Part shown: positions 1,194 through 63,667 of the stretch, piece by piece
Layout: each line of letters starts with the position of its first letter
Position numbering within the stretch: the first letter of the stretch is position 1
Notes under the pieces: generated by a model
Told to the model about the DNA's origin: nothing
The model's input: only the letters and a program-made list of their open reading frames with translations
Database searches by the model: none
NCBI RefSeq assembly: GCF_032118995.1
Contig: NC_092650.1
Location: 24,624,001 to 24,688,000, forward strand
Source of the DNA: Asterias amurensis
Lineage: Eukaryota; Echinodermata; Asteroidea; Forcipulatida; Asteriidae
Length of the DNA: 64,000 bases
Direction of reading: 5' to 3'
Position numbers and translations under genes: made by a program

Positions 1194-1602
1194 GGTATTG
1201 ATGAGATGGGGTGGGATTGGTAGATTCAGAACGGGAATCAGATCACTAATCTTGGACACCTTCGGGGCCGGCATTCGCATGGTCTGAAACTCGGCCAAGA
1301 CGTCTTTCTCCACCTGGTCCAACACGGATGCATCCTGTGAGAAATGAACGGGAAACAAACAAAGGTCTTGAAGTACGGTTATAACTTAACAAATAACGAT
1401 GTCCATGAAAACTTACTTGGTTAAGAGAGCACAAGAGAAGGCAATTACCAAAAGTCAACCCTGTCTTTAAAAATAGAATGTTATTACTTACCTTAGCCTT
1501 GATGATGAAGCTGTTTGGAATGCCACGTCGCTGGGCCATGTAAATTGGAGCAAGAGCGGCATTGGCAGCGGCCACACACAGACACAACAAGATCAGCTTC
1601 AT
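1194..1602 (-). CDS. Gene A: S8 subtilisin-like protease, exons 1-2 (partial)
   Basis: This is the 5' end of a secreted proteinase K-like peptidase gene read leftward. Exon 1 (1492-1602) encodes a 37-residue start with a signal peptide of about 16-18 residues ([18 protein letters not shown]), then the beginning of the I9 propeptide. Its donor is AAG|GTAAG. Exon 2 (1194-1334), after a TCACAG acceptor, encodes 47 propeptide residues beginning DASVLDQVEKD and ending at ACC|GTAAGT. Both junctions are phase 0, as in genes C and E. Exon 3 is not present between base 1 and 1193, so the gene either continues beyond the window (intron 2 would exceed 1.2 kb, against 0.5 kb in B and C) or is truncated. 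Both exons are free of lesions. Function as a protease cannot be judged without the catalytic exons. Confidence 0.75.
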
Positions 1603-2612
1603 GGTTGGTTACGATGACGTCCGAAATTTACGAGAACAGTCAAGCTAAAAGTTCTTTGAAGGCAACAGAAACAATGCAAAGTCAAGATGTTGGTGTTGTT
1701 TGATATCAAACTCATCTTTTTTAGGAAAGTTGACAACGGTCGCCACAGTTCGGGTTCCTATTTGGGGATGCCTATCATTTTGATGTTGGTTTTATTTCTG
1801 ATCGACCTGCTACTTCTGACAGAGCAAACATTGTTATACCATTGACCATGCCTATAAACTTCCTTTCAAAATGTCACTCGCATGAAATGTCAGAAAGATT
1901 TTATGTCAAAGGGTCGAAAGGGTCAATAAGCCCATTTTGCGTATGGTCCAGTCACACAACAGCAATTGAATGGTCTTTGCGCAGCATCGAACACAGTGTA
2001 TCAGTGTCTCTTTAATTATAGTCTAGTTGAGGGAAAATAAAATGACACAATTCATACCGCCAATTAAATAAAAAAATGATTACAATTATAGTATATGGTG
2101 GCTGTTCAGCTAACTTCTCAGCGCCACAAAGTGTTCAACATGCTGAAAAAATGCCGACAGACGCGACAGATAAAGGCCGGCCCACACTCTTCGCCATAGT
2201 GTGAGTCGGCATTGTAAGCAATATTGAGGAATATGAGCTTCTCACAGTGTTTTGTATAAAAAATGGTTGTTCATACAGTGACACGGTGACTGCAACACAG
2301 GGCTGTTTGAATACACCTAGGTATATAATATATTATTTGGAAGTGGACAAAATATCCGCTGATGACAATCCAAAAATGCTTCTGCTTCGTCAGTATCATT
2401 ATTGTATATCTGTTTGGAATATAGATTCAAAAACAACCAAACGGTTCGGAAAACCAAAGGTATCTTTAAGCTTTAAGATGGTTTCGCTCATTCAAATCAA
2501 TCAATCATAGCTCTTTTATTTGTGAAAATCGAGCACTTGATTCGACCGTTGAAGGTAAAACGCAGAAGGAATAAAACCCACCGTTTTGCTGAAATAAATG
2601 AAGTCAACTTAC

Positions 2613-2671
2613 CAGTCAGGAAGACGATGCTGTGAAGTGAATGATTTCTGGGTAAATGGGCCTATTTATAC
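2613..2671 (-). promoter_or_regulatory. Gene A core promoter and noncoding first exon
   Basis: On the minus strand a TATAAATA box (2663-2670) is followed about 25-30 nt later by a short leader ending CTTCCTGACTG|GTAAGTTG, with the donor after 2613. The same leader-donor sequence precedes genes B, C, D, E and G. The intron to exon 1 would be about 1 kb. The transcription start near 2635-2640 is inferred from TATA spacing. Confidence 0.6.
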
Positions 2672-2689
2672 TAATGAGTGTCACTTTAA

Positions 2690-2800
2690 TCACCTAGGTG
2701 TTTATTAATTAAGTTCAAAGTCATCTGATTATATATTTATCTAATCTAATAAATAATTCAGCAAAATAAATGGAGGATCCTACGCGCTGACCATTATCAG
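2690..2800 (-). promoter_or_regulatory. Gene A upstream GATA/HNF4-like module
   Basis: Just upstream of the TATA box the sequence holds AGTTCAAAGTCA (close to an HNF4-type site) and GATA-type motifs (TTATCT, ATTATCAGAT). The order resembles the cassette repeated upstream of gene B (AAGTTT, AAAATTATCTGATAAAT, TTTAATCTAGCAAAT). The site assignments are motif matches only. Confidence 0.35.
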
Positions 2801-12417: not shown

Positions 12418-15400
12418 TTATAGCTGGAAAATAAAGGGAAATAAATATTAAGATTAATTTCAATTCTATTCATTTGGAGTCCCAAAAAGATATATAGGTT
12501 TTCTCGGTCAAATTCGGCAAATGAGCAGTCAATTTCATTTGCATGCGTTCGAATTAAAGCTGTTTTGCATCTCCAGTTGTTAACTGCGTATCAAATTCAG
12601 AATTCGACCATTCAATTTCGTTTCGAGTCGAGTCAAATTCCTTTAGCGTAGCGTCATTCTTTTTCGAGACACACACGCCTCAAGAAGTGTCTGCGAATTT
12701 GAATGCTGCTTTGATGAATTGTTAAATTGAATGATTGTTTTGTTAAATCGAATGACGCAACATTAAATTGGACTAATCATGAAACGAAATCGAATGACCC
12801 TTTTGAGTAGCATTCGATTTCGCGCGAAATAGAACAGCCTGGTGGTTAAATTGGCTGCTCATTTTCCGAAATTGACCGAGAAAACCTATACTAAAACCGG
12901 TAAAGAACATAGAATCGATAAAATGTTTGGTTTGCGGTTTAAACATCATATTATGTGTGTGTCTTCTTGGGGTTATTTTTTCTTCTTTAGAGAGCTCTTT
13001 AGCTTAATTTCTACTAGACTTTTAGTTCCACCTGGCTTTATGGTGTTACCACTTACAAGTTATAGAGTAGAGTGCAAAGACGGAGATGGGGAACTTGGAT
13101 GTAAATGTTCATTACGCGCCATTTTAGTGAGCAATATTATTCATGTTGAACTAATTAATAGAGCAGGGATACTGTGACCACTATTAATGATAAAACATCA
13201 CTTGCTGAAATGGCGCACATGCGGATTTCTTTTTCCAACAATTTCTTTCAAATACCTTAATGCAAAACTGAGCACTATAGTAAATCCACGCTACCCTCAT
13301 TAGCTAGAATATTGAAATAATTTTTGGGGCTGCTTCACAAATTTTAAACTTTTTGTCTGGTTTTGATGTATGTCTTTGCCATTTTTATGGCGTTTTACTG
13401 CTAGTTAATGATTTTTTTCTTTTATTTTTTGTGTATTTATGTATAGTTTTTGCCTGTTTATTGTTAATTCCATTTTTCTTAATTCTGTAAAAACTTTGTA
13501 AATTTGAATGTTGTCAACCTTTTGGCTGTTTTTTATTCAGATTAAAATAAACCATTAATAAAAAAAATAGCTCCCGTTCCTCATCTTTCGCCTTCTCAAA
13601 CTTAAGTTTGATAAGGCCGAGGGACTTACGTTTCCGATGTACAACAGTTTGTTGGGAGTTCCAACGTTGTCGGCTAATGTAGTTCTAGGGGTCGCATTTG
13701 CAAGCAGATCTTGCTTTACAGTCTCAGAGTTTGGATCGATGCCAAGGTACAATGCAGCAGCACCTAAAGTTGTACAAAAAGTTGTGAGTTAAAAAAAAAA
13801 AATATCTATAAAAAAGTATTACAAAGGTATTATATAGGGATCCCCTCAAGGGGCAGGGGCAGATATAACATCAACTGAAAATGTTAACCACATTTTTAAA
13901 ATTACTTTGTCCCCTCCAAATACTACTTCTTTCCCTCAAAGTACTCTAGTATGTTCCCTCAAAATATCATTTCGATATCACGGAAGATTTCATCGTCCCC
14001 TTGAATGAACAGTTCGTTCCCTCAGCATCATTTTATTACATTATGATTGCACTACTGTTTCACTATACCACGAAATATTATTTCTTTTTTTTCTAAAAAA
14101 TCCTATATAATTCCCTCAAAATGTTGCTGTGTTAAGTTGAAACGTTCCGTCGAAATAGTACTTAGTTCCCTCGTATAATGTTATTTCGAGGGAACTTATT
14201 AAAACAAAACAAACGAAAACATACAAATAACCCAATATTTATTCTTTTAACCATAATATACACTGATGTGTATTAGCACTGTATACTCGATAAATTCACG
14301 GGTTCAGTGAAACAATCAAAGGCATATTAGTCGGTTGGGATTCGAACCCACTACCTTTGGCATTCTAAAGCAGTGTCATACCAACTATACCACCAAGATT
14401 GCCCGGTAGCTAGAGGCATTTCGAATCCTATGTTTTGTCAGCAGGCACTGCAACGATTTAATATAAGTTAAAGGAACATTACATAATTAGTTTTTGCTAA
14501 CAAAACAGTTGCTGGCAGTGTAAGCACAGTTTGAGATCGATCGGCCATCTGGGTCACAAGAGAATAGTGAACAAAAAACTATTTCAAATTTTGCATTGCA
14601 TCGATGCCAAAATGAAAATGGATAAAACGGTCACTGAGCGGTAAACTCCAAACGCGAAGTTAGATTATTTATTTCTCATTAAATATGACAGAATTTCAGA
14701 CAGAAATATTTCAAGAGATGTTTTCAACTCTCATCATCATTAGACCGTGTAAGTTTTATGTAAATCTGTGGTTTTCACGATTTTTGTTTCTTACCAATTC
14801 TGTAACGTTCCTTTGCATCAAGATATAGAATTTGATAACAAAATACTTCATTATAATATTATTGTATTATTTCAAAACGTTATATCATACCAGTTACGTG
14901 TGGGCAAGCCGTTGATGTGCCTGACATGATAGCCGAAGCATAGTTGTTGTAAAAGCTAGCACTTTGAATGTTTTCACCGGGTGCATACAAATCTACACAT
15001 TGACCCCAGCACGAGGTAGCTGATCTTCGGTCCCAGCCGTCAGAGGCTGCAACGGTGATTACCTATATAACACGAACAAAGAAACATTAACATGTGATCT
15101 ACGGACATTGCACGGAAATAATTCTACTAACCAATCGGGGTTGATTTTCATTAATTGTGACCCACTCTGTGAAAATGAGTCAGATGTCGCCCGATGCTAA
15201 TTATGTACAAGACAGTTCCATGTGGATTTTAGTATTTTTACTTTTTAAGATTTATGTTTCAGGGTAAACCTATGAGCACTTATTTTTTAGACAATAAAGC
15301 TATTAAAGGCATTGCACACTATTGGTAATTGTCAAAGACTAGCCTTCACAGTTTGTGTATCTCAACATAAGCATAAAATAACAAACCTGTGAAACGTTGA

Positions 15401-17601
15401 GCTCAATCGGTCATCGAACTTGCGAGATAATAATGAAAGAAAAAAAACCTTGTCACACGAAGTTTTGTGCGTTTAGATGTTTGATTTCGAGACCTCAAAT
15501 TCTAAATCTGAGGTCTCGAAATCAAATTCGTGGAAAATTACGTCTTTCTCTAAAACTATGGCACTTTAGAGGGAGCCGTTTCTCACAATGCTTTATACCA
15601 TCAACCTCTCCCCATTACTCGTCACCAAGTCAGGTTTATGCCAACCATTATTTTGAGTAATTACCAATAGTGTCCACTGCATTTAATGCATCAATTTTGT
15701 GATCAAACTTTGGTCTTATTTGTATACTTTTGCGCGAATTTGTGTTTCAAAACATCAATTTACTTGTAATTCGTTTTTAACAAAACAAATTATACATTGG
15801 CTTATATTCTTAAGTAACTCAGCAACGCGATACAACCCAAAGCTAAGACATAACAAATTATACAAAATAACTGCTGCTGGTGTGTTCTATTCAGCCATGC
15901 ATATAACTCAAATTTCTTTAAAATTGTCAACATCTGACTCTTTTTCACAGAGCGGGTCACACATGGTTTTGAAGAAACACTGCAAAACTTACCCCTGTGA
16001 TGTGAGCCGGTGATAAGGTGCAAGCATCGATGTTTAAGTTACCCGCCGCTACGGAAACCACGTACTTAGCATCCAGCAACCTTTGAATTGCTTCGTCCAT
16101 GACGTGGGATATAGAGAACCCGAGAGACATAGAAACAACACCGCGTGGATAAGCAGTTACCATAGTCAAACCTACAGAATAGAAAACGTGTATTATAAAT
16201 TGGTGCTTAGACTGTTTGTCCGGAAGGATAAAGACAGATCCCTGCTCTCAGATCCAGTGATTCCGTTGGATACATTGATATCTTCGGATAAACGTGCAGT
16301 GACATGAGCTTTCCATAATTATGTTCAAACAATACATTCCTAGATTTTGACTGCATGTCTCTATGTGAAATGAATGTACGTCAAAGGTGCATACGCCGGC
16401 CGGAGGCCGGGCTCTGGCGTTTTTCACGAAGTGTGACCTTATATGTTCAGGCTAATTGGCAGTTATGGGAGACTTTGAAACTCTAGGTGGCAGCAAACTT
16501 AAAGGGCTGATTCGTTATCGCAATAATCCAATGCGCAAACGCTGATCGCTAGATATACCAGCATGCACCTCATTCCACGCCTATTGCGCGCATACCGGGT
16601 ATTTGCAATATTAGGTGTATGGGTGCGTTCGTTTAGCTTCCCTGGGTCTACCCCGGTCTGCCCTGGTACGTTAGAATAGCTTTGACGGGGCTCACCCGGG
16701 TCAGCTCCCTTGTGGAGTGGGTCACTTGGTGGTGACCTGGGGTGCACGCCGTCACCACGAGAGGGCGAGTGTGATCGTTCGATTAGCTCTTGTTAGGGGC
16801 TCACCCGAGTGAGCACTGCGGGGTAGACCCAGGGAAGCTAAACGAACGCACCTTATGTTGACTTCGGATTGGGCGTCTTCGGCTTGGGCGTCTTCGGCTA
16901 TAGCAAGTGTGTGTTGTATTATTTGAATACGACTGGAAAGATGAGCTCCCGCTTAGAACGAATTCTGCAGGGTGCCGTAAGCAGATTTTCGTTGTTTAGT
17001 CAACAAATCTGTACCCACCTTGAACTAGTGTGCTCATTGGACAGATGCCGTACACGTCACAGACTTTAACATTATAAATAGTAGCTTTTCGTGCAATTCC
17101 GAAGGTAGCTCCCGCTGCAGTGCCAGCACAATGGGTTCCATGACCTTGGTCGTCCCGTCCACCATAAATGGTCTGGACGCGACCGCCAAATTCGTTATGG
17201 GTTTCCAGGATTCCAGTGTCAACGATGAAGATGTTTGCTCCTTCCCCTAAAACTGTTGACAAGACCAAAGCACAGAGGACAAAATACTTATTTAGAGGAA
17301 AAGAAAATAATATTATGATTGAATTCATTCATGAAAAGTGGGGAGATTTGGCAGCGCATACAATGAATTGAACATCGAATTTAAACAAAAACTATGATGT
17401 CACGCTGTTTGCTAACCGTTGTCATTGTAGCTGTACCAGTGATCTGCAGCATCTCTGGAGTCGATTCTGTCAATCCCCCAAGTTGGGTTGGCCTGTTGAC
17501 CGTACAGCTCGCCCATGGAATCTTGCTCGATGTACTCGATGCCATCGATGGAGCGGATCTAGGGAAATAGGGGTTAATGAAGTAAACATAATAACAGCAA
17601 T

Positions 17602-17656
<55 letters not shown>

Positions 17657-45283: not shown

Positions 45284-45315
45284 CAAAACTGTCCTTTCTT
45301 TTCAAGATTTCTGTT

Positions 45316-46948: not shown

Positions 46949-46976
46949 CTGTTCTTATTTCACAGACCGAGGTGTG

Positions 46977-47673: not shown

Positions 47674-48045
47674 TAAAGACTCTTGACACTATTGGTAATT
47701 TGTCAAAGACCAGTCTTCTCACTCATCTCAGCATATGCATAAAATACAAAACCCGTGACAATTTGAGCTCAATCGGTCGTCGAAGTAGAAAGAAAATAAT
47801 ACCCTTGCCACACCACGTTGTGTGCTTTCAGATGCTTGATTTCGAGACCTCAAATTCTAAATCTGAAGTCTCGAACTCAATTTCATGGAAAATTATACTT
47901 TTTTCTCTAAAACTTATCCACTTCAGAGGGAGCCGTTTCTCACAATGTTTTATACTACCAACCTCTCCCCACTACTCGTTACCGACGAAGGTTTCTATGC
48001 TAATAGTTATTTTGAGTAATTACCAATAGTGTCCACTGCCTTTAA
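47674..48045. repeat. FB3 foldback MITE in gene E leader intron
   Basis: Counterpart of 25421-25793 at the same position relative to the ATG, with the same termini and central palindrome. Confidence 0.85.
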
Positions 48046-48154
48046 CACTTAACAATAACATTTCAACATTGATATTTGACTTTTAATTTGTTCTTCAAAA
48101 TCCAACGTTAGCTTTGACTGTTCTCGTAGTCTGTGGACGTCCTCATAACCAACC

Positions 48155-51100
48155 ATGAAGCTGATCTTGTTGTGTCTGTGTGTGGCCGCTGCCAATGCCG
48201 CCCTTGCTCCAATTTACATGGCCCAGCGACGTGGCATTCCAAACAGCTTTATCATCAAAGCTAAGGTATTGTTATATTGCTTGATAACAGGGAATTTGAA
48301 GAAGAAGAAAAAAAGGCATTGTGCTTCTTTTAGAATGAGTCTTTTGTGAAAAAAAAATTGTTTCCTTATGATTGTGCTGTAATTTTTAACCAATTTGTAC
48401 ATTTATTTTATAACTACAGTTTTCTCGGTGGTATTATTGTCAATAATTATAACGTGTATCGACAGTTTGTTATGAATGGAACACAAAATGCTCCAATTCT
48501 CACGAAATTGTCACCTCGCATGTTGGTTATGTTTTCAGTTAGTACCTGAACTTTTGAGTTTAAAAGCTACTTATTTTATTCTCTCATTTCTTACAGGATG
48601 CATCCGTATTGGACCAGATAGAGACAGATATCTTGGCTGAGTTTCAGACCATGCGAATGCCAGCCCCAAAGGTGTCCAAGATCCGTGATCTGATTCCCGT
48701 TCTGAATCTGCGAATCCCACCTCACATGATTAATACTGTAAGTAATAAGAATGACAGCAGTATTTATTCAATTTATTTAGTAATTTTAAGATCTTTATAC
48801 AGGATACAAATATTAACATAAAATACTAAATATCATACAACCGCCATGTTTTACTTTATGTTCTTGTGGCTGAAAAATGAGAATAAGGGGAAAAAAAACC
48901 TTAAAAATATACCATCACAACAGGTGCAACGCCAACGTTGAGTTGTCACCGCTGAATACAATTTGCTTTTTGAATAAAAACAACTTGAGTTTCAACATCT
49001 CCCCTACCTATTCTTCTTATTAGGGGTGCTTTGAAATACCCGCATTTGCTTAAGCAATTTTGAGGAATGGCGGACACAGTAATTATTAACAATATTTGGT
49101 TTTTGGTAAATCTGGTGATATCCACCCAAACCAAACAGTGCAATCACATAGTGTCCACCCCACTTTTCGAAACAGGCATGCATGTGACTTGAGTGCAAGG
49201 GGTCAATAATTGAATTATTATTTCCGCAGATCCGCGCCATTGATGGTATTGAGTTCGTCGAGCAAGAAGCCATGGCGCAGATCTTAGGGCAGCAGTACAA
49301 CCCAACTTGGGGAATTGACAGGATCGACTCAAGAGACGGGATTGATGGCGTCTACAACTTCAATGACGGCGGTTAGTTAATCCGACATGGTCAATGTTTA
49401 AATCAAATTCTTCGATTTATATACGAAGCTCCGGATGGTAGTGGGGTTGTGCCAACAATATACTGGTTCCCTGCCATACAAAAGTGTGTCCATGACTGGA
49501 TTTCACAAAGAGTTAAGACTGGTCTTATGTCGAGTTAGGGTGAGTTACTAACGTCCTAATTTTAGACTAGTCTTAAGTTTTTAATATCTCATAGTCCTAA
49601 GTTATAGGACTATTTCTAACTCTTTGTGAAATCGTCCCCATAAAAATATCATTCAGAACTAATGATTTCGCGATCTCGAAGTAAAATATTTTAGTGGAGT
49701 GATTTTATTTCATCATTCTGTACTGTTCATGATTCAGTTTCTGTTTTCACAATTAAACACAAAACTAAAACAAACTACACATTCGCATGGAATCAAGAAA
49801 TCATATATTTTTAATTGTGTTTTATTTAAAGACCTTTGTGCACATGATGTCATTTGAGTAAAGCGCCCTCACTTAGAGTTCTAAAGAAGCTTAATCATTG
49901 GCCAATCCCGTGCGCCGCGCGTACAAATCAGTGTGTTTCGATTGTTACATAATCGTTTTTGCCACTAAAGAAGATGGCGGCTTAATGACTTCAATCCACT
50001 GGGTCTAGTCCATGTGAAGCCTTATTAATTACAACGTTTACCCACTATTTTGATTATTTGAACAGCCTTGGGAGAAAATGGTCACGTCTACATCGTGGAT
50101 ACCGGTATGAGAACAACTCATTCAGAGTTTCATGGTCGCGCCCAGCTCATTTTCGGTGGGCCAGACGACAACGGCCACGGAACCCACTGTGGTGGTACTG
50201 TCGCTGGAGCTACTTACGGAATTGCACGCAAAGCGTCGATTTACAGTGCTAAAGTATGCACCAACTCCGGTGGTTGCCCTACCTACTTGATCCTCGACGG
50301 TAAGTGTCATCGTATCATTGTCATAATACACATCATCTAAACTGCGCCAATAAAGTATCTAAACACTTTGGTCAGAATTAATCGGAACTATAAAATAGTA
50401 TGCAAAATAATAATTTATTAGTTTATTCGATTCACAGTTATCTTCTGCGCATTTTGAAGCCTGTCTATTTGCGCCACGAGTGTTTGGCGGGTTTGTGGGC
50501 ACTTCATTGGCTTAAGGTTGAACTTTAAAAGTTGCAAAAGCCGCTAATCACCGAAGGGAACTCGCACAAGCATATCACACACAGACAAATGATAAAAACA
50601 AGGAGGGCAAGAATCATGTTGACAATTTTAGTCACCGTACAACGGTTTTGCAACTTTTAAAATTCTACCTTAAGCCACTCAAGTACCCTTAAATCCGCCA
50701 AACAACATCGTAGCGCAACAAAATAGGTATCAAAATGCGCAGAAGATAACAGTGGATCGGATTTATAATTATTTTGTTGGCATTCTATTTGAGGTTTCGG
50801 TATATCTGACCATTTGTAAGTGTTTAGATACTTAAATCGCACAGTTTACATTGCCCAGTCTCACTCATGCATAAAACATGTCCCTGTCCCCATTTGTAGC
50901 AGTACACTTTCCAAACCGGGCACATATATTAACAAAAAAGAGGACTATATGGGTCCACGATTCGTGTAAGGTCCACGGTATTTTTGATTCGACTTCAGGC
51001 TCCGTTCTCTCGTCTGAAGCCCTGGGCACGTACGCAAAGCACACGCAGTATTGTCAAAACAACTGCGGGGCCAAGCTAGCCTGAGCTGAATCTGGGGCAG

Positions 51101-54100
51101 GAGCCGTGGTTTCGTGTTGCGACTCTTCTGTCAACACTTTAAAAACTGATATGTTTAATTGACACCATGGTTTTACCACAAATACCAACAAATGAGTAAA
51201 ATTTAACACAATAGGGTGTTAAAATAGCACCCATTTCTGCAAAATCAATTACATTGGTGTTATGTTAACCCCTTATGATGTTAACCTCTTCGGTATCTAT
51301 TATGTGAAAACGCCCACGGTGTCAGTTTTAACATCCCAGTTTCTGAACTGCAATATACAAAACTCTTGGAGGAACTAATAGTATGTCTACTGCAACGTAA
51401 TTTCTCCAATAACATGAACACCATTTTTAAACAAACTTTTTGTTTCCACTTGTTTGTAGGGTTGAATGCAGTTTCGCAGAGACCGAAAGGTGTTGTATCA
51501 ATGTCTCTTGGTGGTGGTGCAAACCATGCCCTCGATGCTGGAGTCCAGGCACTGATCGATACCGGTTACGTACTTTCCATCGCGGCAGGAAACTCCGACT
51601 CGGATGCCTGCTACAACTCACCTGCCCGCGTTCCCGACGTAAGTTGCATTTCTCGGTCTGAAAACACTTTTGTTGTTGATGGGTGCGTTCGATTAGCTTC
51701 CCCGGGTCAACCCCGATCTGTCCCCGGTAAGATCGAATAGCTTTGACGTCATTCCAGGGGCTCACCCGGGTCAGCCCCTAGTGCCCGTCTTGTGGAGAGG
51801 GTCACTTGGGGCTGGTCCGAGGTGCACGCGACAGGGAGTGATCGTTCGCTTAGCTCATCAGGGGCTCACCCGAATGAGCACCACCGGGTCGACAAAGAGA
51901 AGCTAATCCAACGCACCCTAGTTTTAAATATTTATTTATATATTTATTGGTTTATTTAATTAAAAACAGCATAATGAACGTCGGTGTGGCAACCGAGAAG
52001 TTGAATTGCACTGGAACAAAAATATATATATAATTTTTTAGGTAGCAAAAGGTGAAACACACAATAGGTAATACGCAAGAACTATAAACAATCAAAACAC
52101 CAAACAATCAATACACGCAAAACCGTCAATAAATTGACTTTAAAAAAAAATTAAGGTACACACTGTTGATAGAAAATGCCATCAATAAAAATCAGATAGC
52201 AGGGTTTTACGAAAAACGTTCGAAAAGTATATGGACAGATACAAAACGAAGATATTTACTACGACACAAAATGTATATCGTGTTGTAATAAAGAACACTG
52301 GTCTCAGTTATTCGCCTAGATAAAAACAATACTTAAAGTATTAAACATATTAATATTGTATTCTTTTAGGCAATCACCGTAGCAGCCTCAGACAATCAGG
52401 ACAAAATTGCCTATTTCTCATGCTGGGGCAGCTGTGTTGATATCTTTGCACCCGGTGTAAACATTGAAAGTGCCAGTCATAATTGGGACACCGGCTCTGC
52501 TACCATGTCAGGCACATCAATGGCTTGCCCACACGTTTCCGGTAAGTCTCATTGTTGTTGTTTTTCTATAGGAAGACGTAGAAATTTGGTCTCTACTGGT
52601 CTTTCAAAGATGTTGCTTTTAAACTGTACTTGCTACTTTGCCAAGTTAACTATAAATAAATGGTAAAGTTGCAGGTACAACCACGTGTAATCTCTTTTTT
52701 GGGGAGTATAATGGCTCTAAAAAAGAGCCGGTGTGGTCTCGACGTTTCAAACAGTATACTCTGCTGGTCTTCAACACTCACACAACAGAGATTTACACAT
52801 TGTTGTACCCGCAAGATTACTTTTTTATTTTTAGTTTATTCATACTTATCTACACCAAAAGCTTCAAAAATGCTTATGCCAAGTTGCATTAACCAGTTAC
52901 TTGAGCGAAAATGGCTGGTCGAGATTAAATGAATTCGATATGACTATTTAATAGATTTGAATTGAGCAAAAAAAAACAATCGTTTATTTTTATTTTATTT
53001 GTGTATTATTATTATTATTTCATCTTACCACAGCTTGCAAAAGAAAGATCATATTTTCATTTGTGCCGGATCACCTCGAGTTGGGCTACGTCTCGTAGCC
53101 TAAGATATCGAGGGCCTTTCTTAGGATCCTCGCTGTTCCCAACAGCGCCGCCTTCTGCAACAGATCTATAAACACTGTAAATTTGAGAACGAAAATCTGC
53201 TACAGTGCTAGCTTTGCCACTCACTGCTCGTCATTCAGCCGTATGCAAGTTATTGGTATTTTATATCCATGTTAAAAGGCCAATTTAATAAAAGAAACTA
53301 CCATCTTGTTTCTGCCTCTCATAACAGCTAAACGCGCGCGACTAAGTTGGAAACCAGAGTAAATGATTCTGCCGCAGACAACGTTCACTAAATTGTTCGG
53401 GCTCTTTCACTATGACAACTTTTAATGCTCGGTCAAGTTATCTCAAAAATAGCCATAACACACTCCCCTTAATTCCACCTAGCCCCAGAACTCTCAATCT
53501 TTCGAGATAAATTCAGCTGGCTTAGTTAAAACAAAAAGCGATGAACGAGGTTAGAAAGTCAGAAATCCAAGTTGTATGCATAAAGGAGTACACTCCTTAT
53601 GCTGAATCAGTGGCCTCACTTGGCTTACTGTGTTTAAACACTTCTGGCTGTGGTTATATCATCCGTTTAAACACACCACGTGATGTCCTCTGAACCAATC
53701 GAAATGGAGAAACTATCCCAGGTATTCATGAATGAAGAAGACTAACATAATTATTTCAGGAAACCCCAGGTCTGCCGCACAACGGGCATGGTAGACAAGA
53801 CTAGTCATAGGTAACTGAAATATCTTTTTGCAATTTCAGGTGTTGCTACACTGTACTTTGTCAAAAATGGAGGTGCAACCGGTGTAGTATCGCAACTGCT
53901 TGGAGATGCGAGCAACGGGAAAATATACTACACCAAGGGATCGCCCAACAAGCTCCTTTACTCTGGAAATGTGAGTACCTCAGATCTTAAAAAAAGTTTG
54001 TTTTTAGTTGTGCACCGGGCTTGCTTGTAACTCGCTGTATAAAACCACATGGGGCAGCACGTGTACTGTAGATGTCGTAGCAAAACACTAAACACTAAAC

Positions 54101-54866
54101 ATTTTTGTTTATACCTTTTTTCACTGCCCTTCACGTTACGCGAGCAAACACGTGAACATGAACGTTAGAAAATGTTGTTGTTTCTAGGTGACGTCACTAC
54201 TTTGGGATTATTTCATGCTCACGTATGACGTCCGCACAACGTACGTACCTGACGTGAAAAAAAACTTCACGTACTCCAACTTCGATGACCAATTGAGCCC
54301 AAATTTTCATAGGCTTGTTATTTTATGGTTATGGTGGGATACAAGTTAGAACACTGGTCTGACAATTACCAAGCATGTAAAATGCCTTTAAAGGCAGTGG
54401 ACACTATTGGTAATTACTCAAAATATTTATCATCATAAAATATTTCTTGATTACAAGTATTGGGGAGAGATAGATGGTATAAAACATTGTGTGAAACAGC
54501 TCCCTCTGAAGTGACGTAGTTTTCAAGAAAAAAGTTTTTTTTTTCACAAATTTGATTTCGAGACCTCAAGTTTAGAATTTGAGGTCTCGAAATCAAGCAT
54601 CAGAACACACAACTTCGTGTGACAAGGCTGTTTTTTCTTTCACTATTATCTCGCAAATTCGACGACCGATTGAGCTAAAATTTTCACAGGTTGGTTATTT
54701 TATGCATATGTTGAGATACACCAACTGTAAAGGCTAGTCTTTGACAATTACCAATAGTGTCCACTGCCTTTCAGGGCCCTCGTATAAATCAGATGTCAAC
54801 CATCAAGTTTTTTACTTTTATGTGTTAATAAGCTTCTTTTTGTGTGTGTTTCTCCTGCAGTTGTAA
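48155..54866 (+). CDS. Gene E: secreted proteinase K-like serine protease (S8/I9), complete
   Basis: Coding exons: 48155-48265, 48597-48737, 49230-49371, 50066-50299, 51460-51638, 52370-52541, 53840-53970 and 54861-54866; 371 residues. Signal peptide 1-18, I9 propeptide about 25-110, catalytic Asp143 (YIVDTG), His169 (NGHGTHC), Asn254 (AAGNSD) and Ser319 ([10 protein letters not shown]) are all intact. Splice sites and phases (0,0,1,1,0,1,0) equal those of C. Versus C I read nine replacements: M65K, N154H, M158Q, R187K, Y189S, G269D, D278N, Q281K and S340T. E agrees with pseudogene D at 187 and 189, so C carries the derived state there. The final exon is TTG TAA. Intron 7 has gained an FB3 MITE. 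Likely a secreted digestive endopeptidase activated by propeptide removal. Confidence 0.93.
49495..49637. repeat. FB5 MITE in gene E intron 3
   Basis: Counterpart of 27237-27376, same insertion position. An FB4-related copy follows at about 49828-50000, as in gene C. Confidence 0.75.
50343..50843. repeat. 500-bp foldback element in gene E intron 4
   Basis: Counterpart of 28083-28582, with the same AAAGTATCTAAACACTT outer arms. Confidence 0.75.
51681..51918. repeat. FB2 long form MITE in gene E intron 5
   Basis: Counterpart of 29423-29661 with a few substitutions. Confidence 0.8.
52671..52812. repeat. Short element with Penelope-like tail in gene E intron 6
   Basis: Counterpart of 30469-30608, same termini and same GTCTCGACGTTTCAAACAGT interior. 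Confidence 0.6.
54391..54773. mobile_element. FB3 MITE present in gene E intron 7 but not gene C
   Basis: Full-length FB3 (AAGGCAGTGGACACTATTGG to CCAATAGTGTCCACTGCC). Gene C has the flanks joined: AAATGCCTTTAAGGGTCCTC near 32228-32247. It therefore inserted after the duplication or was precisely lost from C. Confidence 0.8.
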
Positions 54867-55402
54867 ACGACAGAATGGTGGACATGAATGATGTTTCAGG
54901 CATAGTCACGGACGAAAAACTTGAAGCTGTTAATGGCAGCAGACAACATGGTCCCCTCTTCAAAGAAATAATAACTTTAGATTCTAGTTTCGCACTGGTC
55001 ATGTAACTCCATCCCTTACTGAAACAAACTATTACAATATTACATTTGTTTCCAGTCCGTTTTGTCTGATGCCTCCTTTTGTTTAAGTTAATTGTAGTGA
55101 TGTCAAAATTAATTTGTGATCAGGCGGCCATCTTGTGGAGAAACAAATACACGAACACTTTGTCAATCACAAGTGGCTGCCGATTTTTTCTTTATTTATA
55201 TCTGGCCTGTTAGTTTAAGTATTATAGTAAATAGTACAATATTTCGAGTTAAATTTGCGGATTGGTGCCGACAATCTCTTTCTTGTTGATGTGTCAACAG
55301 TCCAGATGTGTCTTCTATCGAAGCCAGGCTCGCCGGCACTATTTCCAGTAATACTGTTAATACTATTCTTGACAGAAGACTATGTCCTAAAGGTCTGATA
55401 TT

Positions 55403-55408
55403 AATAAA
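55403..55408 (+). terminator. Gene E poly(A) signal
   Basis: AATAAA in TATTAATAAAGAGTAATT, about 540 nt after the stop codon, matching 32862-32867 of gene C. Confidence 0.55.
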
Positions 55409-55594
55409 GAGTAATTAAAATACGCAGAAGAATTCTTGTCACGGGCTGTGTTCATTTTGAGTTTCCCTTTTTTATTGACGGATATATTCTATAATTTGAG
55501 TGAGACGACGGTAATGGCGGAAGAAAGTGGTATCCTTTTGACCATTGAAAGAGTGTTGGTAACAATAAGTCTAGCACATGTATTTTGTAATGCT

Positions 55595-55912
55595 TATGAC
55601 ACTGGACAAATGGTCAAAGACCAGTCCCCTCACTTGGTGTATAACTCAAACTATGCACAAAATAACATGGGAGAGGTTGATGGTATAAAACATTGTGAGA
55701 AACGGCTCCTTCTGACGTAACGTAGTTTTCGAGAAAGCAGTAATTTTCCACGGCTTTGTTTTCGAGACCTCCAGTTTAGAATTTGAGGTCTCGAAATCAA
55801 AGCCATTATCTTGCAACTCCGACGACCAATCGAGTTCAAATTTCACAAGTTTGTATTTTATGCACATGTTGAGATACACCAAGTGAGAGACTGATCTTTG
55901 ACAATTACCAAT
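55595..55912. repeat. FB3 MITE, rearranged, downstream of gene E
   Basis: Left part ACACTGGACAAATGGTCAAA and right part GACCTCCAGTTTAGAATTTG to GACAATTACCAAT, with an inverted middle. In unit 1 the corresponding element carries the giant foldback. Confidence 0.6.
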
Positions 55913-56602
55913 TGAATCAGCCAAAGACGAAAATGCTGTGCTTCTGTGATTGGTTTCTTTAATATCTCTTCTTCTTCTCATTAGGCATTGTGGTTAGCAC
56001 AGATTAACTACAATGAAAATAGAAACAAAAATATATGTCACAAGAAATACTCAGTGATTGTACCAATTAATTGGACCTAACCTGAATTACCCCAATAATT
56101 ATGCAAATAAAGGACTGAATAAAGCAATGTTTACATTGACCCATGTGCCTAAAGGGAATCTATACAAACTTTGACCTATAAACCCTGGGCTATAATTACC
56201 ACATAAACACAATTAGCAACTGACTGAATCATAGAATATTATGCGTTAACCTGTGTTATATCAACCAACGACAATATGCGTGTATGAATAACAATCCCCA
56301 ATTACATGTGCGACCAAATTAAACGCAATGACAAAATACAACTATTTTAGGCTTAAAATCAGTACATAAATATAACACAATCAATCAATCAGCTTTATAA
56401 TTTTAGTGGCAAGAAAATCAATGCACAAACCGTTTAATAAACCTCGGCGGAAATCCCAAAAACTTTAGGCGAAGAACAATGGGCTGTTTACTTGGGAAAA
56501 TCGTGAAACTAAGACTCTGACTTTCAGCCCTCGTAGCAACTGCTCGATGTGAACAGCGCCCTCAATCGATAGAAAACAAGTACCCTGAGTTTGGGTGTTA
56601 CA
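55913..56602 (-). mobile_element. Solo-LTR-like insertion, 0.69 kb, with 5-bp target duplication
   Basis: On the minus strand it starts TGTAACACCCAAACTCAGGG and ends GTCTTTGGCTGATTCA. CCAAT flanks it at 55908-55912 and 56603-56607. Unit 1 has the empty site ATTACCAATAGTATCCAGTG near 37780-37800. No coding sequence is seen; the TGTAACACCC start is LTR-like. Confidence 0.65.
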
Positions 56603-56724
56603 CCAATAGTATCCAGTGTCTTTAATGCGTCGAGGGGTGCTACTGGCGCTACTTCGTAAACTCAACCAAAAATACAATAACATGGTGTTTGAAGCTTTGC
56701 ATGGTGTATAATATTAATAGTATA

Positions 56725-57320
56725 AAACTTGCGGGTACAACCATGAGTAAAAAATCTTTTGAAGGAGTGATGGAGTGAGAGCCGGTTTGGTCTTGACGTT
56801 TCGAACAGTATACTCTGCTCGTCTTCAGGAGAATGCTGCACTACTGGTGGTGGTGGAGCATATGTATGGCTGGAGGGATGCACTTTTGGGCGGGAAGAAT
56901 CGAAGCTGTTCTTGTCCGGTGAAGCGTGTGTGAGTTGGTTACTGGCTGGATGTGTGTGCGTTGGAGTGTGTCAGTGTTGAAGTGAGCTGCTGCTGGAAGT
57001 GTTGGCTTGAGAAGTGGTGACAAGATGTCGTTGATGAAGGGTCCGATGTCTTGTGGAACTGTGTTGTGGGCCTTGATCTCGATTTCCTCCCTTACTCTGC
57101 GTTGGTGACAGAACTTGACTGGAGTGATGAGCTGGGCTTGTTTCCATTTGATGGGGTGATCTTGTTCGTGTGAGTGTTTGATGATTGTTAATTTGTCTAG
57201 GTGTCCTAGTCTGCCGTGTGCTAGATGTTCCTTGATTCTGGTAGATGTTGCGGCCGGTTTCCCCGATGAAGACTTTACCGCATTCGCAGGGAAAGTCTAA
57301 AACTGCATGAAGATTTAAAA
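56725..57320 (-). pseudogene. Decayed Penelope-like element, GIY-YIG remnant (unit 2)
   Basis: Duplicate of 37925-38510. It has the same CECGKVFIGETGR start (about 57255-57300), the same downstream frame break and the same CGAAACGTCAAGACC tail. Confidence 0.6.
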
Positions 57321-57394
57321 CCGGTCGTGTAGTTCTTTAGATTTGGTCCCACTTCCAGACCCTGTGTAAATGACATGCCCTGTGACGATTATGA

Positions 57395-57720
57395 TAACTT
57401 GGCGATATATATCGCGATAAATATCGCGAAAGTTATCGCGATAATAACCGCCATTTCTGTCATGGTTATTATAGCGACAGTTATATCGATAGTTATCGAA
57501 AAAGTTATTGCAATAATAACCGCGATAACTATCGCGATAACTATCGCGACAGTTATCGCGATAAATTTTGTGATAAATGTTGCGGTTATTATTGCAATAC
57601 TTATCGCGACAGTTATTGCGATAACTAATCCCGATTATTAGCGCAATTATTATTGCGATAATATCGCCAAATTGTTTGCGATTATAACCGTGCTAACAGC
57701 CGCCATAACTACCGCAATGC
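57395..57720. repeat. GCGATAA/TTATCGC array
   Basis: Dense, irregular alternation of TTATCGCGATAA, ATCGCGACAGTTATC and GCAATAATAACCGC words, self-complementary at many offsets. The 88-codon Ile/Ala-rich ORF over it is a composition artefact. Confidence 0.8.
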
Positions 57721-57739
57721 AATAACTATCCCAACAAAT

Positions 57740-57990
57740 ATCTACAGATACAAATCTCGACGAAAGCAAAACCTGTTCCGACAGAAGGTCGAAACAGCTA
57801 ATAATAAAACAAATAATAAAACACGGACGAAATCAATACCTGTTCCGACCTCATAAAAAATATAAAAATATTGACAAAACAATACCTGTTCCGACAGTAG
57901 GTCGGCACGTCTTATAATAAAAAATATAGAAATCTGGACGAACAGCTAATCAAAAATATTAAAATCTCGACGAAAACAATACGTGTCCCG
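57740..57990. repeat. CTGTTCCGACAG / TCTCGACGAAA tandem repeat
   Basis: Three to four diverged units of about 65-75 bp with AAACCTGTTCCGACAG, AGGTCG, CTAATAATAAAA and AAATCTCGACGAAA. It ends about 60 bp before the exon 1 relic F. Confidence 0.65.
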
Positions 57991-58050
57991 ACAGTAGTAG
58001 AAGCTTTCACTTTGTGTACTTCGTGTTTGTGGACTCCCTCATAACCAACC

Positions 58051-58164
58051 ATGAAGCTACTCTTGCTGTGTCTGTTTGTGGCCGCTGCCAACAACGCCCC
58101 TGCTCCTATTTACATGGCCCAGCGACGTGGCATTCCCAACAGCTTCATCATGAAGGCTAAAAAG
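58051..58164 (+). pseudogene. Gene F: isolated S8 protease exon 1
   Basis: A 38-codon exon: signal peptide MKLLLLCLFVAAANNAPA, then [14 protein letters not shown] and MKAKK, with donor GTAACT after 58164. It has one Lys codon more than the other copies. The sequence before the ATG (GTGGACTCCCTCATAACCAACC) matches the leader of D, E and G. No TATA-leader unit lies upstream and no exon 2 is found before gene G at 61.9 kb, so it is a fragment left by duplication. Confidence 0.75.
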
Positions 58165-58179
58165 GTAACTAATAAGGGA

Positions 58180-58320
58180 ATAAAAGGGTAGCGACTAGTT
58201 ATTTCACGGCCGTTTAAAACAGGCAAGGTCGAATTGCCGTGTGATAAACGCCCTTTATCACCCGGCAGTTTGACCCTGCAAGTTTTAAACGTTTTTACCC
58301 TTTTATTTTCATTCATAAAT
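58180..58320. repeat. Palindrome with AACGGCCGTTT-type arms
   Basis: GAATAAAAGGGTAGCGACTA and TTTACCCTTTTATTTTCATT face each other, with ACGGCCGTTTAAAAC and GTTTTAAACG inside. Related sequence flanks the FB2 copy near 21285-21540. Confidence 0.5.
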
Positions 58321-60960
58321 GTCTGTTGTTGGTTAAAAGGCGTAATAAAGTAAGAAATTCTGTAAAACTTATCCGTTTCCGACGTGCTTGAGCTCGTCGA
58401 CGTCCGTGCGTTGCATTGTGATGACTGAGACGCATATTTCAGACAGTTTCAGGTTATGTTCGTGCGCAGGCGCGTATGGTATTGGTGCAACCCGTTTTGG
58501 TTTTCTTTTCACACACAGCGCGGCTAACTCACCAACAGCGCCTGCATCGCCCGTAACAAGAAACGTCTTGCACCAAAACTAGCGCGGAGTATCCGCTTAC
58601 AACCAGTTATACCCCAAGTGACGCGCTCTCCACCAAGGGAATGGCAAAACTGTCTGAGGTATTTATCAATGTCCACTTATTCTTAAAAAACTCCCCATTC
58701 TGATAGAAAACCCTGTTTTGTGAGAGTTAATTCCCAACTGGATTTTCAGGGCTACGACCAATAGCATAGCCTTGATCAAGGCTGTTGACGTACTGTTCCC
58801 CGGCCCGGTTCGCGGCACACGCATGCAGTGCATACACAAATGTACATTACCATACATTGTACAGCGCGAGAACAGTATAGCGTAGTCGTGAGAACGGTCG
58901 TGTCTTTGTATTTTCAACCTCAAACACGTGGCTCAAACAACAGCCTTGATGGGTTTGTAAAGCTTTATCGGAATTCCGATAAAAGGGTATTCATGATGTG
59001 GGCGTGTCATTCTAAACATTGGCCAGTCACAGGCGCGATTGAGAATGACGTATTACTGCGAGCAATCATGCCACGTCCATGTGTGTGTACGCTGTACGCT
59101 AGCTGTATATGTACATGTACTGTACTACGTGCTTTTTATAGCAGTGTCGGGAGCGTGGTTTATATTATTAGCTATGATTGTAAGGGGTCTGAATGCGCTG
59201 CCGGACGGGTGAGCCGGACATGACTCGCCCGGTCGGTAATGGTGTTGAACAACTTCGAACAACTTCCGTTGTCTCGCGTTTCATTATAACACGAGGACTA
59301 GCATCATAATTACAACGTAGCTGGTAGATTTGTCCCTGAATTGGAAGCTGCTGTACTATAGGTGTAACGTTGTAGTGGAGTACTAGTAGTATGGCAAGAG
59401 TTAGTTTATGAAATTGAACTTTATTTGTAGTTGTTGTTCAGCCACACGCCATCTTCTACCGTCTGTCGACAACACATATTTTCGATCCCCAACTTTGATT
59501 TACCGCGAGAAACGTAATGAATAATATATGTCTACATTAAGACAAAATAAACAGCTGGGTTTCTTATCTCATCTGCTGGTCTGTGCTTGTGCTTCAAGGG
59601 GATGGGGTGTGTTGTACTGTCATATGCCCAACACCTAAGAATTCTTACCAAGTAGCCATCTTGCCGGAAACCCATGACACCTGGATACTTTTTTAACCTT
59701 TCTCAAACACATTTCACATGGTCTAATTTTCTTCCTTCTATTTCTAAACCCATGATTGATGCATTAAACGCGGTTGTTATATTTTGTTGAAAGTTTCTGT
59801 AGTTGTGTTGCAAATTATACACCACTTATTTCCAGCGACTTACAGTTTTGTTTTACTAGTAGGATTTTCTCCCTCGCCCGCCGCCATTATTGCAACTATA
59901 CTACAGCCACTGCTTGTTTACAATACGTCGACGAGCACATGCGTGCGAGTGCTTGCAGAACAACGTTGTGATTGACATCGCAGCGAGAGTTTATAGGTCA
60001 ACCAACAACCAATGAGAACCGTTGTTAGTAAACATTAGCATAATGAGCTCCGCCCTAAATTTTGGCAGATACAAAACCATCAAGGCGCTACTTGGGAGGT
60101 ACCCATGTACCGTAAGTGTACCGTATACAGATGGTACATGTACATGTACAGTAAGTATGTGTACATACGCTATAGTACACGTATTATATGCACTGTGTTA
60201 TGGATGGGGGTGCGCTGGCGGAATGGGAGACTTTTCAAAAGCTCTGCCACTAGAGGGCAGCAGACCTACCAGGTAAGGGTGCACAACTCCTATACCAAAC
60301 AATGGTAAATGCTACAAATTCAAAAACACTCAAAAAATATTTAGAAGTCTCTCAACCTCTTGAAAACTAAATCAGATACATTGTCATACACTAAACTTCA
60401 GATTTCTTCTCAATTTTTTTGTAGGTCAGCATTTTGGAATTTTTGCTAATTACCCTAGAAGAAACACTCCCAAAACCTCATGCACACCGCTTGTTATCAT
60501 AGGGGAACTCGTGTCCAGTACGTCCTGTTCCAGAACAGTGCGGTTTATGCTGGCATTGTGTTATGAAAAACAAAATACAGTTTGGCTAAATCTAAATACA
60601 AAATCAAAAACACGCAAAACACATGGTATTTGCTGTCAGTGACCGTCACTCATGCTTCTCCTATTCCTAAGTTGTTGACATTACCTGGTGAAGAGCGCCC
60701 TCTCTTGGTAAATGGCAGATAGTGTAAAGTTTCCCATTCAGTGATGGAGACTGGGATTTTGCAGATCGCGGCTGGCTGTAGCGCCTTGATCAAGGTTACC
60801 AATAGCATGGCTAATATCTTTTTCCATTAACAAAATATTACTTCGGAAATAATACTTTTAAAATGCTTTAAAACTACCGAAACCTACTCTACTTCTTAAA
60901 AAACCCAGTAACTTTTCATTGCCTATGGTTTTAAGAGCGATTACCAAAAGCGACTCCCTT
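58321..60960. other. Unit-2-specific sequence, no gene seen
   Basis: Not represented in unit 1. Contains GTACATGTAC palindromes (about 60110-60165) and AGAGGGCGC-type motifs; ORFs up to 131 codons show no recognisable domain. Confidence 0.45.
60247..60260 (+). promoter_or_regulatory. CTCF-like motif
   Basis: CCACTAGAGGGCAG fits the CTCF core consensus CCASYAGRKGGCRS at every position. A 14-mer match alone is weak evidence; related AGAGGGCGC words occur in MITEs across the window. Confidence 0.2.
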
Positions 60961-61410
60961 CGAAGCCCGGTTCAATGAATAATTTGCTCAACCTCCTGCA
61001 AAACATTCGCTGCGAAAATAGGACTGTGGCGCCAAAATTCGTATCGCATTCGCAGGAAGCTAATGCTACTCTCTCACACTAGGGAGAGTATGCTATAGCC
61101 AATGTGCTTACAAACGGAAATGTTTAACAATCGCTCAAACTTCGCAACATTCGCCGTGTCTTCATAAGCGTCGGTAAGAAATTCGCTACGTTCACAAGAC
61201 ATTCTCCACCTCCTTAAGCCCGGTTCATACTTCCTGCGAATGCGAATGCGATACGAATGTTGACGTCACAAATTCGCAACGATTAATTCGCAGCAGTTCA
61301 ACTATAACTCACTTGCGAATATCGGTGCGAAAGGAGGGTTGTGGCGTCCCATTCACGTCAAATTCGCTTCGCATTCGCATTCGCAGGAAGTATGAACCGG
61401 GCTTTACGAT
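60961..61410. repeat. CCCGGTTCATACTTCCTGCGAATGCG foldback family
   Basis: A complete foldback at about 61215-61405 has arms AAGCCCGGTTCATACTTCCT and inverse, with repeated GCGAATGCGA words. A partial copy is at 60961-61065 (AAGCCCGGTTCAATG to TCGCATTCGCAGGAAG). Further ATTCGCCGTG/CGTAAG words run to about 61750. Confidence 0.7.
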
Positions 61411-61877
61411 GATCGGTCAATTTATGTTGCTCTCACACGGCGAATATGCTAGCGAATATGCTATCGGAAGGACATATTATTTGACAATCGCTCAAACATC
61501 GCAGCATTCGCCGTGTATTCGTAAGGGTTAGTAACAAATTCGGAACGTTCACAAGTTATTCCCCACCTCCTTACGAAGATCGGTCAATTTAAAAACAAGT
61601 TTCTAAATGTCAGCGAATGTTGCGAAGACGGTCATTCGCCGTCGATTTTCGTAAGCATTTGTAACGTTAGTAAAGCGTGCGTAAGCGTTGGCAACGTTCG
61701 TAAAGGCATTGTCAAGTGTTGGTAGGCGTTCGTAATATGTTCGTAAGATATTGGTAAGGAGAGGGCCGACTGAGGACGATCGAGGGGTGAGACCGAGATG
61801 TTCACTATCTAACCGCCATTTTGGACGAATTCAACGCGAAATTCAAATTATCATCTTCGCAAGAACGTTCGCCACTC

Positions 61878-62241
61878 TGTGGGGAATGTTACTTCACTCC
61901 ATTGTCCCTTTACTTAGCCTATTCGTGAACTTGGTAAAAAAATAATCTTACGTCGAAAACGTGTAAACAGCTGATGACATTCTCAAAAACATGATAAAAC
62001 TTGTCAATAGGCCAATGGTTTTACATTAAAACCCTGATAAAGGTCATATAGGGAAAGCCTGCTTACCTTTTATCAAACATCTGCTTGGTTCAAAACAATC
62101 ATATCTATGATTTTGAAATAAATGTATCTTTCCTTTGTCTTTCTTGTGTAAACAATAAGTTGATAAAATCGACACTCAGACAGTATAAATAACCCCCCTT
62201 AAACAGCTATTCTTCACTCTGAAACATCGCCTTCCTGACTG
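61878..62241 (+). promoter_or_regulatory. Gene G promoter and noncoding first exon
   Basis: TATAAATA at 62184-62191; leader ends CGCCTTCCTGACTG|GTAAGTTG (donor after 62241). Upstream GATA and GTGTAAACAATAAGTTGATA block as in D. Unit homology with D resumes at about 61878 (GAATGTTACTTCACTCC). Confidence 0.6.
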
Positions 62242-62841
62242 GTAAGTTGGCTTTATTTTGTTCAGCATAACTACAGTTCTTTTAGTTTGCTTTTCAGCTC
62301 TGTGTCCGCGGCTCGACTCCAGGCGTGGAAAGAAGCCCCGTTTGGGGGTGGGGTTTTAAAGGAACTGGACACTGTTGGTTACTACTCTATTGTAAATAGT
62401 GTTTAACACAGAAACTTCATTGGTAACGAGCATTTAAGAGCTATTGATAGCATAAAACATTATGAGAAACGGCACCTTCTGATGTAAACGTAGAGATTGT
62501 TTTTTAGAAAGAGGTAATTGCTCACTTCAGCAGAAGCCTTTTAATATGTATCTGAAAACACACAAAGTTGTGCAACAAGGGTGTTTTTTTCTTTCACTAT
62601 TCTCTTCCAACTTCGATGACCAATCGAGCACAAACGTACACAGGTTTGTTATTTTAGGCATAAATATGTTGGGATACACCGAGTTAAAAGACTGGACTTC
62701 AACCATTACTGTAGCTACACGCAAGTGAGTTATTACTTTACAGTAACATTTCAGCAATATTATGAATTTTAATTTGCTCTACCAAAATCAAACTTTTGAT
62801 TCAACCGTTCTCATAGTAAGCCGACTCCCTCATATTCAACC

Positions 62842-63667
62842 ATGAAGCTACTCTTGTTGTGTCTGTGTGTGGCCGCTGCCAACGCCGCCCTTGCTCCAAT
62901 TTACATGTCCCAGCGACGTGGAATTCCAAACAGCTTCATCATCAAAGCTAAGGTATTGTTATATTGCTTGATAACAGGGAATTTGAAGACAATATGAAGT
63001 CGTTTTGGTCTTGATTAGCACTCCCCATGGCACCATGGAAAGTTTGCAACACAATGGAACTGAACAGTCGTATAAAAAACATCCAGATATTCTGGTTGAA
63101 TTAAACAAAGGCTTAACAAGTTTTGTGGTTTAGAGCACAGCTGTCTCCCCCAAAAAAACTTTGAGAATAAATTCACACCCAAAAAACAAGTAATTGTGCC
63201 TGTTTAAGAGTGAGTCTCTTGTGTTCAAATTTGAAGAAAAAAAAATCATTAGGATTGTTCTGTAATTTTTAAATAACTTCTTATACTGAGTTTTTTTTTT
63301 AATTGTAGTTTTCTGATGGCATTATTGTCAATTATTAGCATGTGTCGATAAATGAAACCTACGTGGTCGAATGTTTAAGAAAGAAAATAAATATATATAT
63401 ATATATATATATATGTAGTTTTACTAATATCGCCTCGCATGGGTTAGGTTTTCAGTTGTACCTGAACCGTTGCTTGAATTAAATAAAAAGCTACTTTTTT
63501 GGATGCTTTCATCTTTCACCTCACAGGATGCATCCGTGTTGGACCAGCTAGAGAAGGATATACTCGGCGAGTTTCAGACCATGCGAATGCCGACCCCGAA
63601 GGTGTCCAAGATCCGTGATCTGATTCCCGTTTTGAATCTACCAATCCCACCTCATCTTATCAATATT
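62842..63667 (+). CDS. Gene G: S8 protease, exons 1-2 (continues past window)
   Basis: Exon 1 (62842-62952) encodes the signal peptide [18 protein letters not shown] and the first propeptide residues, with MSQRRG where other copies have MAQRRG. Exon 2 (63527-63667) encodes DASVLDQLEKD to HLINI. Both donors (GTATTG, GTAAGT) and the TCACAG acceptor are usable. It is the unit-2 partner of pseudogene D but lacks the Penelope-like insertion in intron 1. Whether it kept exon 3 and the catalytic His must be read beyond base 64000. Confidence 0.75.

Follow-up and report, generated by a model that had tools for sequence, protein, structure and literature searches.

Whole and broken protease genes

The window analysed here is a 64-kb stretch of contig C3 (24,624,001-24,688,000; genome 491.5 Mb, 23 contigs), which carries a divergent cluster of genes and gene remnants for predicted secreted proteinase K-like subtilases and is the middle of a quarter-megabase protease array. 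A scan of the window's 3,390 six-frame open fragments (at least 12 residues each) with profiles of the seven exons of this family yielded seven matches to exon 1, six to exon 2 (copy F being the exception), three to exon 3, four to exon 4 (copies B, C, D and E), and three each to exons 5, 6 and 7 (copies B, C and E). The weakest family match has an E-value of 4e-27, and the next best match for any exon one of 0.34. The seven leader exons, A (starting at 1602) and B (19165) on the minus strand, and C (25904), D (39491), E (48155), F (58051) and G (62842) on the plus strand, encode peptides of the form MKL(I/L/F)(L/V)LCL(C/F)VA..., and the two leftward and five rightward copies with common exon structure that had been proposed from the sequence are indeed present.

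Two of the copies are intact within the window. Copy C (25904..31812, plus strand; exons at 25904-26014, 26348-26488, 26968-27109, 27804-28037, 29203-29381, 30164-30335 and 31682-31812) is stop-free for 370 amino acids across its seven spliced exons, with GT-AG borders at 6 of 6 junctions. Copy E (48155..53970, plus strand; 48155-48265, 48597-48737, 49230-49371, 50066-50299, 51460-51638, 52370-52541 and 53840-53970) has the same seven-exon structure, is likewise open for 370 residues with GT-AG at its six junctions, and differs from C at nine residues, none of them at the catalytic triad or oxyanion positions; the synonymous distance between the two is 0.023. Positions 1194 and 63667, between which the cluster was originally delimited, are the outer ends of exon 2 in copies A (1194..1602, minus strand; exon 1 1602-1492, exon 2 1334-1194) and G (62842..63667, plus strand; exon 1 62842-62952, exon 2 63527-63667). 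These are not two-exon remnants, as exons 3-7 of A lie to the left of the window, from C3 24622978 down to 24617123, and those of G to the right, at C3 24689021-24696740, each gene being whole, with seven stop-free exons, GT and AG borders and, as judged by eye, retained catalytic residues.

The remaining three copies are damaged to various degrees. Copy B (13630..19165, minus strand; exons at 19165-19055, 18241-18102, 17558-17417, 17252-17019, 16171-15993, 15062-14891 and 13763-13630) has all of its exons, each stop-free in its own frame, and retains the catalytic Asp, His, Asn and Ser, with a ratio of nonsynonymous to synonymous changes (dN/dS) of 0.33 against C over exons 3 to 6. Its exon 2 is one base short (140 vs 141), resulting in a frameshift on plain splicing, in agreement with the frameshifted copy of the original prediction, while a weaker GT four bases beyond the exon 1 donor, read from the sequence and unscored, would preserve the frame; this copy may be dead, nearly dead, misassembled or alternatively spliced. 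Copy D (39491..44278, plus strand) is a decayed relative of G with exons 1 (39491-39601), 2 (41486-41626) and 4 (44045-44278), exons 3, 5, 6 and 7 not being found by the exon profiles in the window. Exon 4 of D differs from that of G at 8 of 234 bases and from that of C at 26, its donor is GTGTCA instead of the GTAAGT of C, and its dN/dS against C is 1.36. The catalytic His codon, kept in G, has become Asp in D (44155..44157, plus strand; NGHGTH to NGDGTH), as expected for the copy described earlier as catalytically broken, but the absent exons and altered donor rule out a gene that is otherwise whole. Copy F (58051..58164, plus strand) is a leader exon alone, whose GT donor lies three bases farther downstream and for which the profiles found no later exon ahead of G; it corresponds to the predicted orphan exon. 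Birth and decay can thus be seen side by side in this inventory of whole and broken copies.

The cluster does not end with the window. We took its neighbourhood (C3 24,540,001-24,848,000, 308 kb including the window), running the exon profiles on 24,560,001-24,818,000 (258 kb) and tblastn on the whole. Family exons span 252 kb, from 24,567,224 to 24,819,030, with none in the flanks examined by tblastn, so that the cluster of seven has to be enlarged to at least 14 copies or remnants in the 308 kb, with 12 leaders and six whole genes (X1, X2, A, C, E and G). X1, X2 and X3 precede the window on its left side, with seven exons each and leaders at C3 24567224, 24584776 and 24603298, spaced by 17.5 and 18.5 kb and differing pairwise by 1 to 6.5 silent or amino-acid changes each way (X3 without exon 4). 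In X1 and X2 all seven exons are stop-free, with GT and AG borders, and by eye the catalytic residues are kept; exon 4 of X3 has a stop codon. To the right of G, a lone leader, H, is found at C3 24738150, followed by I, with its leader at C3 24745848 and exons 5 and 6 behind it, and by J and K (C3 24781331 and 24816047), in which exons 2, 3, 5 and 6 can be recognised, exon 2 being interrupted by a stop and exon 3 by a frameshift. Exon 2 of X2 (C3 24585043-24585183) contains a short run, MRVQAPKVSKF, which departs from X1 and X3 and is similar to the J and K versions of this exon, as though through conversion.

Within the window, a single block is present twice, as C-D and as E-G. The first (24935..47187, plus strand) is 97.7% identical by substitutions to 47188-54394, and its D part is 95.8% identical to 61884-63411; the second (47188..64000, plus strand) contains in addition about 4.5 kb with F (57334-61883) that is present in this block only. 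Counting substitutions only, identity is 97.7% over 24935-32242, 93.6% over 32122-33144, 95.4% over 37784-38527, 95.8% over 38541-40058 and 96.9% over 41353-41959. In a tree of exons 1 and 2 from six copies, C pairs with E and D with G (100/99 each), and in the catalytic domain tree C and G form one group (100/99), with A, X1 and B in another (99/99). Silent changes in exons 2 and 4 had suggested that D might be a mosaic of C and G, and this idea was dropped because the C-G comparison itself has the same pattern (0.41 in exon 2, 0.22 in exons 3-7).

Protein identity, relatives and probable role

The C product matches Pfam Peptidase_S8 with an E-value of 3.1e-29 (102.6 bits against a cut-off of 21.8), which is the only Pfam domain found in it, with no kexin/furin P domain after the catalytic domain. 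No Cys/His-rich C-terminal domain of the PCSK9 type is present either, since the seven-exon model stops at the catalytic domain, apart from a possible short further exon. In a PDB search with the same product, aqualysin-1 scored 210 bits (E 4e-61) and pro-proteinase K 191 bits (E 2.3e-55; residues 14-352, covering pro- and catalytic parts), with a marine extracellular proteinase and a keratinase also matching, while PCSK9 (106 bits), Savinase (96) and thermitase (92) were far below the first two. The alignment columns of D143, H169, N254 and S319 are invariant across B, C and three bacterial enzymes, and by eye the leader resembles a signal peptide. C and E are therefore predicted to be secreted proteases of 370 residues which, among solved structures, are closest to aqualysin-1 and proteinase K.

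Aqualysin-1 and its bacterial kin (PDB 4dzt, 1s2n, 5wsl) share with the array the full-length catalytic domain, the triad and oxyanion Asn, two cysteines at the same columns (C260 and C291) and a C-terminal end N-x-LLYS; they differ from it in sequence (about 47% identity), and the array genes have six introns and a prodomain too divergent for Pfam I9. Fungal proteinase K (PDB 8rse, 1ic6) likewise aligns over its pro- and catalytic parts and has the Cys in GHGTHC, although with the catalytic domain it scores lower than aqualysin (157 vs 210 bits). PCSK9 combines an S8 domain with a prodomain and aligns over residues 28-332, at about half the aqualysin score, and has a C-terminal domain beyond the catalytic domain, where the array model ends.

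Animal proteinase K-type enzymes are little described in the literature that we found, the coverage of which is incomplete. In excerpts of the published reports, subtilisin-1 and -2 of Platynereis (Peptidase_S8) are midgut genes (PMC4307165, PMC5996498), sea urchin digestive cells express PstI, named as aqualysin-1-like, beside amylase, carboxypeptidase and lipase genes (PMC11817407), and diverticulum cells of amphioxus express a subtilisin-like protease (PMC6015868). As far as these excerpts go, all are animal S8 proteases of digestive cells, set beside the array by description only. Digestive animal S8 enzymes are already known in this sense, the array being new and its kind familiar, and by analogy the likely role of the array proteases is digestion of food protein.

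Birth and death of the array and its near-constant leader

The locus is, very probably, an array in which genes for secreted proteinase K-like subtilases of an invertebrate animal are actively born and lost; that the host is an animal is judged from the size of its genome and introns and from its transposon debris. The gene models show whole copies next to a single-base break (B), a stop (X3), exon loss (D, F, H and others) and recent duplications (X1-X3 and the C-D block). Copies would arise through tandem and inverted duplication, and decay through point changes, exon loss and transposon insertion. Each whole gene would make a pre-pro-protease, with a leader directing secretion and an I9-like prodomain of about 85 residues that would aid folding and keep the enzyme silent; self-cleavage near residue 103/104 would then release an enzyme of about 267 residues with the triad Asp143-His169-Ser319 and oxyanion Asn254, which, by analogy with gut S8 proteases, would likely digest food protein outside the cell.

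Several observations pull the other way. The original prediction of a proteinase K-type (I9-S8) enzyme holds for S8 and for the proteinase K-like identity, but Pfam gives 0 I9 matches in the prodomain, and the prodomain alone has a single PDB match, to pro-proteinase K (E 1.5); I9 is detected only by profile-profile comparison, in which hhalign relates four window prodomains to eight bacterial ones, all matching I9 at E 0.01 or better, with a probability of 95.5% and E 1.4e-8. By this comparison the array prodomain is I9-like but divergent. The sole lesion of copy B might be an assembly error or might be spliced around, and the C-E dN/dS of 0.51 comes from only 16 nucleotide changes. A good donor follows residue 370 in C, E and B, pointing to a possible short last exon, and no exon 8 was found in a B-C translated comparison or in the downstream bases. 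Finally, the likely digestive role is taken from what the cited papers report for other animals.

We consider it unlikely that the second block, with E, F and G, is merely the other haplotype of C-D placed in tandem by the assembler, which would leave fewer real genes. Gene order and identity (93.6-97.7%) do fit such an artefact, and some invertebrates are heterozygous at this level. However, there is not a single N in the 64-kb window or in the 258-kb joined stretch, and the assembly comprises only 23 contigs for the entire 491.5 Mb. Moreover, the E block has its left edge at a unit start common to D and G, where the similarity of E to D and G covers about 40 bases more than that of C; the 4.5 kb with F belongs to one block only; and X1, X2 and X3 are three near-copies, beyond what two haplotypes could make. 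It is similarly doubtful that the proteins act in defence, in egg or skin secretion, or as venom, instead of in digestion. The leader is conserved above the rest of the gene, as it is in venom gene families, and an excerpt of a ribbon worm study lists PCSK9-superfamily transcripts among putative defensive toxins (PMC9132205), but the relatives with localised expression that were found, in the excerpts cited above, are gut enzymes.

The origin question raised by an intron-rich animal expansion can be answered in part. At least 49 stretches of the genome match Peptidase_S8, counted exon by exon, and seven of eight other S8 loci fetched from contigs C1, C2, C7 and C8 match the array family, L086 being the one that does not. 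These seven (L081-L085, L087 and L088) have similar exons among exons 4 to 7, and several end in PNKLLYIG or alike, although identity in the matched exons is about 37-66%; the array-type leader was not matched in these loci, taken at about 3 kb each. By eye, the C2 loci have extra cysteines where aqualysin has cysteines. In an unrooted tree of 43 rows, eight of them from the present genome, with bootstrap not quite settled, the array groups with the C1 locus in one clade (100/99), weak support (93/48) places the C2 and C8 loci beside bacterial rows, and a single clade of all eight is not rejected (approximately unbiased test, p-AU 0.37). The array is a branch of an older multi-locus family of this genome, because the other S8 loci match it and because it forms a clade with the C1 locus.

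Horizontal acquisition of the family by the animal lineage, with a bacterium or fungus as donor, would agree with the bacterial affinity of the best solved relatives and with the position of the C2 and C8 loci. Nevertheless, no bacterial relative among the 80 kept exceeds 46% identity in its best segment, and in a quick unrooted tree of 85 rows (2 window, 3 PDB and 80 bacterial) the window pair is on a long branch with no supported bacterial partner; the clade with C1, the unrejected single clade and the six introns, with similar exons in other loci, also argue against it. In another unrooted tree, with fungal proteinase K added, the fungal rows are on the same side as those of the window (92/86, bootstrap not settled). 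No close relative was confirmed in viral contigs (8 stretches) or, with a one-protein query, in prokaryote genomes (47 stretches). Overall, such an acquisition appears improbable to us; the sampled bacteria are unlikely to have been a recent source, an ancient transfer being conceivable.

While the array is mostly a case of ordinary gene birth and death, it has one odd feature, its near-constant leader exon. Ten of the 12 leaders differ from one another by 0 to 7 of 111 bases, namely those of X1-X3, A, C, D, E, G, H and I; they come from both strands, and among them are the leaders of the decayed D, the lone H and the inverted A. The leader exon that was predicted to be common to the copies is indeed there in all seven copies of the window, but F is 9 to 14 bases off the ten uniform leaders and B 18 to 21. 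Between the two sub-families, silent distances in exon 1 and in exons 3-7, respectively, are 0.17 and 0.97 for X1-C (Fisher p 1.3e-4), 0.17 and 1.02 for X1-G (p 5.7e-5), 0.12 and 0.91 for A-C (p 5.1e-5), and 0.22 and 0.87 for A-G (p 2.9e-3), with exon 2 intermediate (0.38-0.49). Among the 10 pairs tested, B-C and B-G show a weak exon 1 excess of similarity (p 0.037), and X1-A, C-G, X1-B and A-B none (p 0.19 to 0.79). Outside the leader exon, A and C differ at 14 of 45 bases before it and, in a rough count, at 17 of 24 after it, without gaps; contrary to a simple rule, D-G and C-E also show few differences over the 45 bases upstream.

From these distances we tentatively suggest, as something short of an even chance, that the leader exon is kept alike throughout the array as the remaining exons diverge, which would call for very short gene-conversion tracts or for selection on silent sites of the leader. 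If so, the leader would be a module shared by diverging proteases, as is known for venom gene families, and the array permits gene conversion to be tested against selection on signal-peptide exons. It changes no general view, but a single protease family here combines duplication of copies and of a block with a one-base disruption, a stop codon, loss of catalysis, loss of exons and insertion of transposons, so that these steps can be ordered, and its clean gene models may assist annotation of animal proteinase K-type enzymes.

Mobile elements and repeats

The promoter proposed to be shared by the copies is real but short, similarity extending for only about 45 to 110 bases (less in F), which rules out a long common promoter; above it lie elements resembling miniature inverted-repeat transposable elements (MITEs). 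They constitute a family of elements about 385 bases long, which have a palindrome in the middle and 32-base inverted repeats at their ends, found at 15301-15686, 25419-25794, 39011-39358, 42522-42871, 44992-45286, 47671-48045, 54387-54772, 55669-55912 and 62355-62709, plus shorter pieces. The C and E leaders each have a copy 110 bases upstream, those of D and G 133 bases upstream, and that of B 160 bases upstream; with respect to the gene, the orientation is the same for B, C and E, and opposite for D and G. A similar MITE-like repeat is known from sea stars, which have 22 chromosome pairs. The 386-base element at 54387..54772 (plus strand) is present in E, but not at the same place in C.

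Intron 1 of D carries an insertion (40059..41352, plus strand) in a TA run, absent from G and overlapping an open reading frame (ORF) with a GIY-YIG domain (40046-40783), which is probably Penelope-like retroelement debris. Two other ORFs (37911-38489 and 56841-57336) resemble Penelope-type GIY-YIG debris by eye, with no Pfam match. The region between C and D contains a large inverted repeat (33360-37453) with arms of about 1.3 kb (83%) and further internal repeats, similar to foldback elements. The left edge of the 4.5 kb carrying F is adjoined by a short-period repeat (57402-57667) with units like ATTATCGCGATA. The window yielded no Rfam match at the gathering score and no transfer RNA gene, and, at 10818-11069, it contains a perfect 12-base tandem repeat, GGCCCACTGGTT, in 21 copies.

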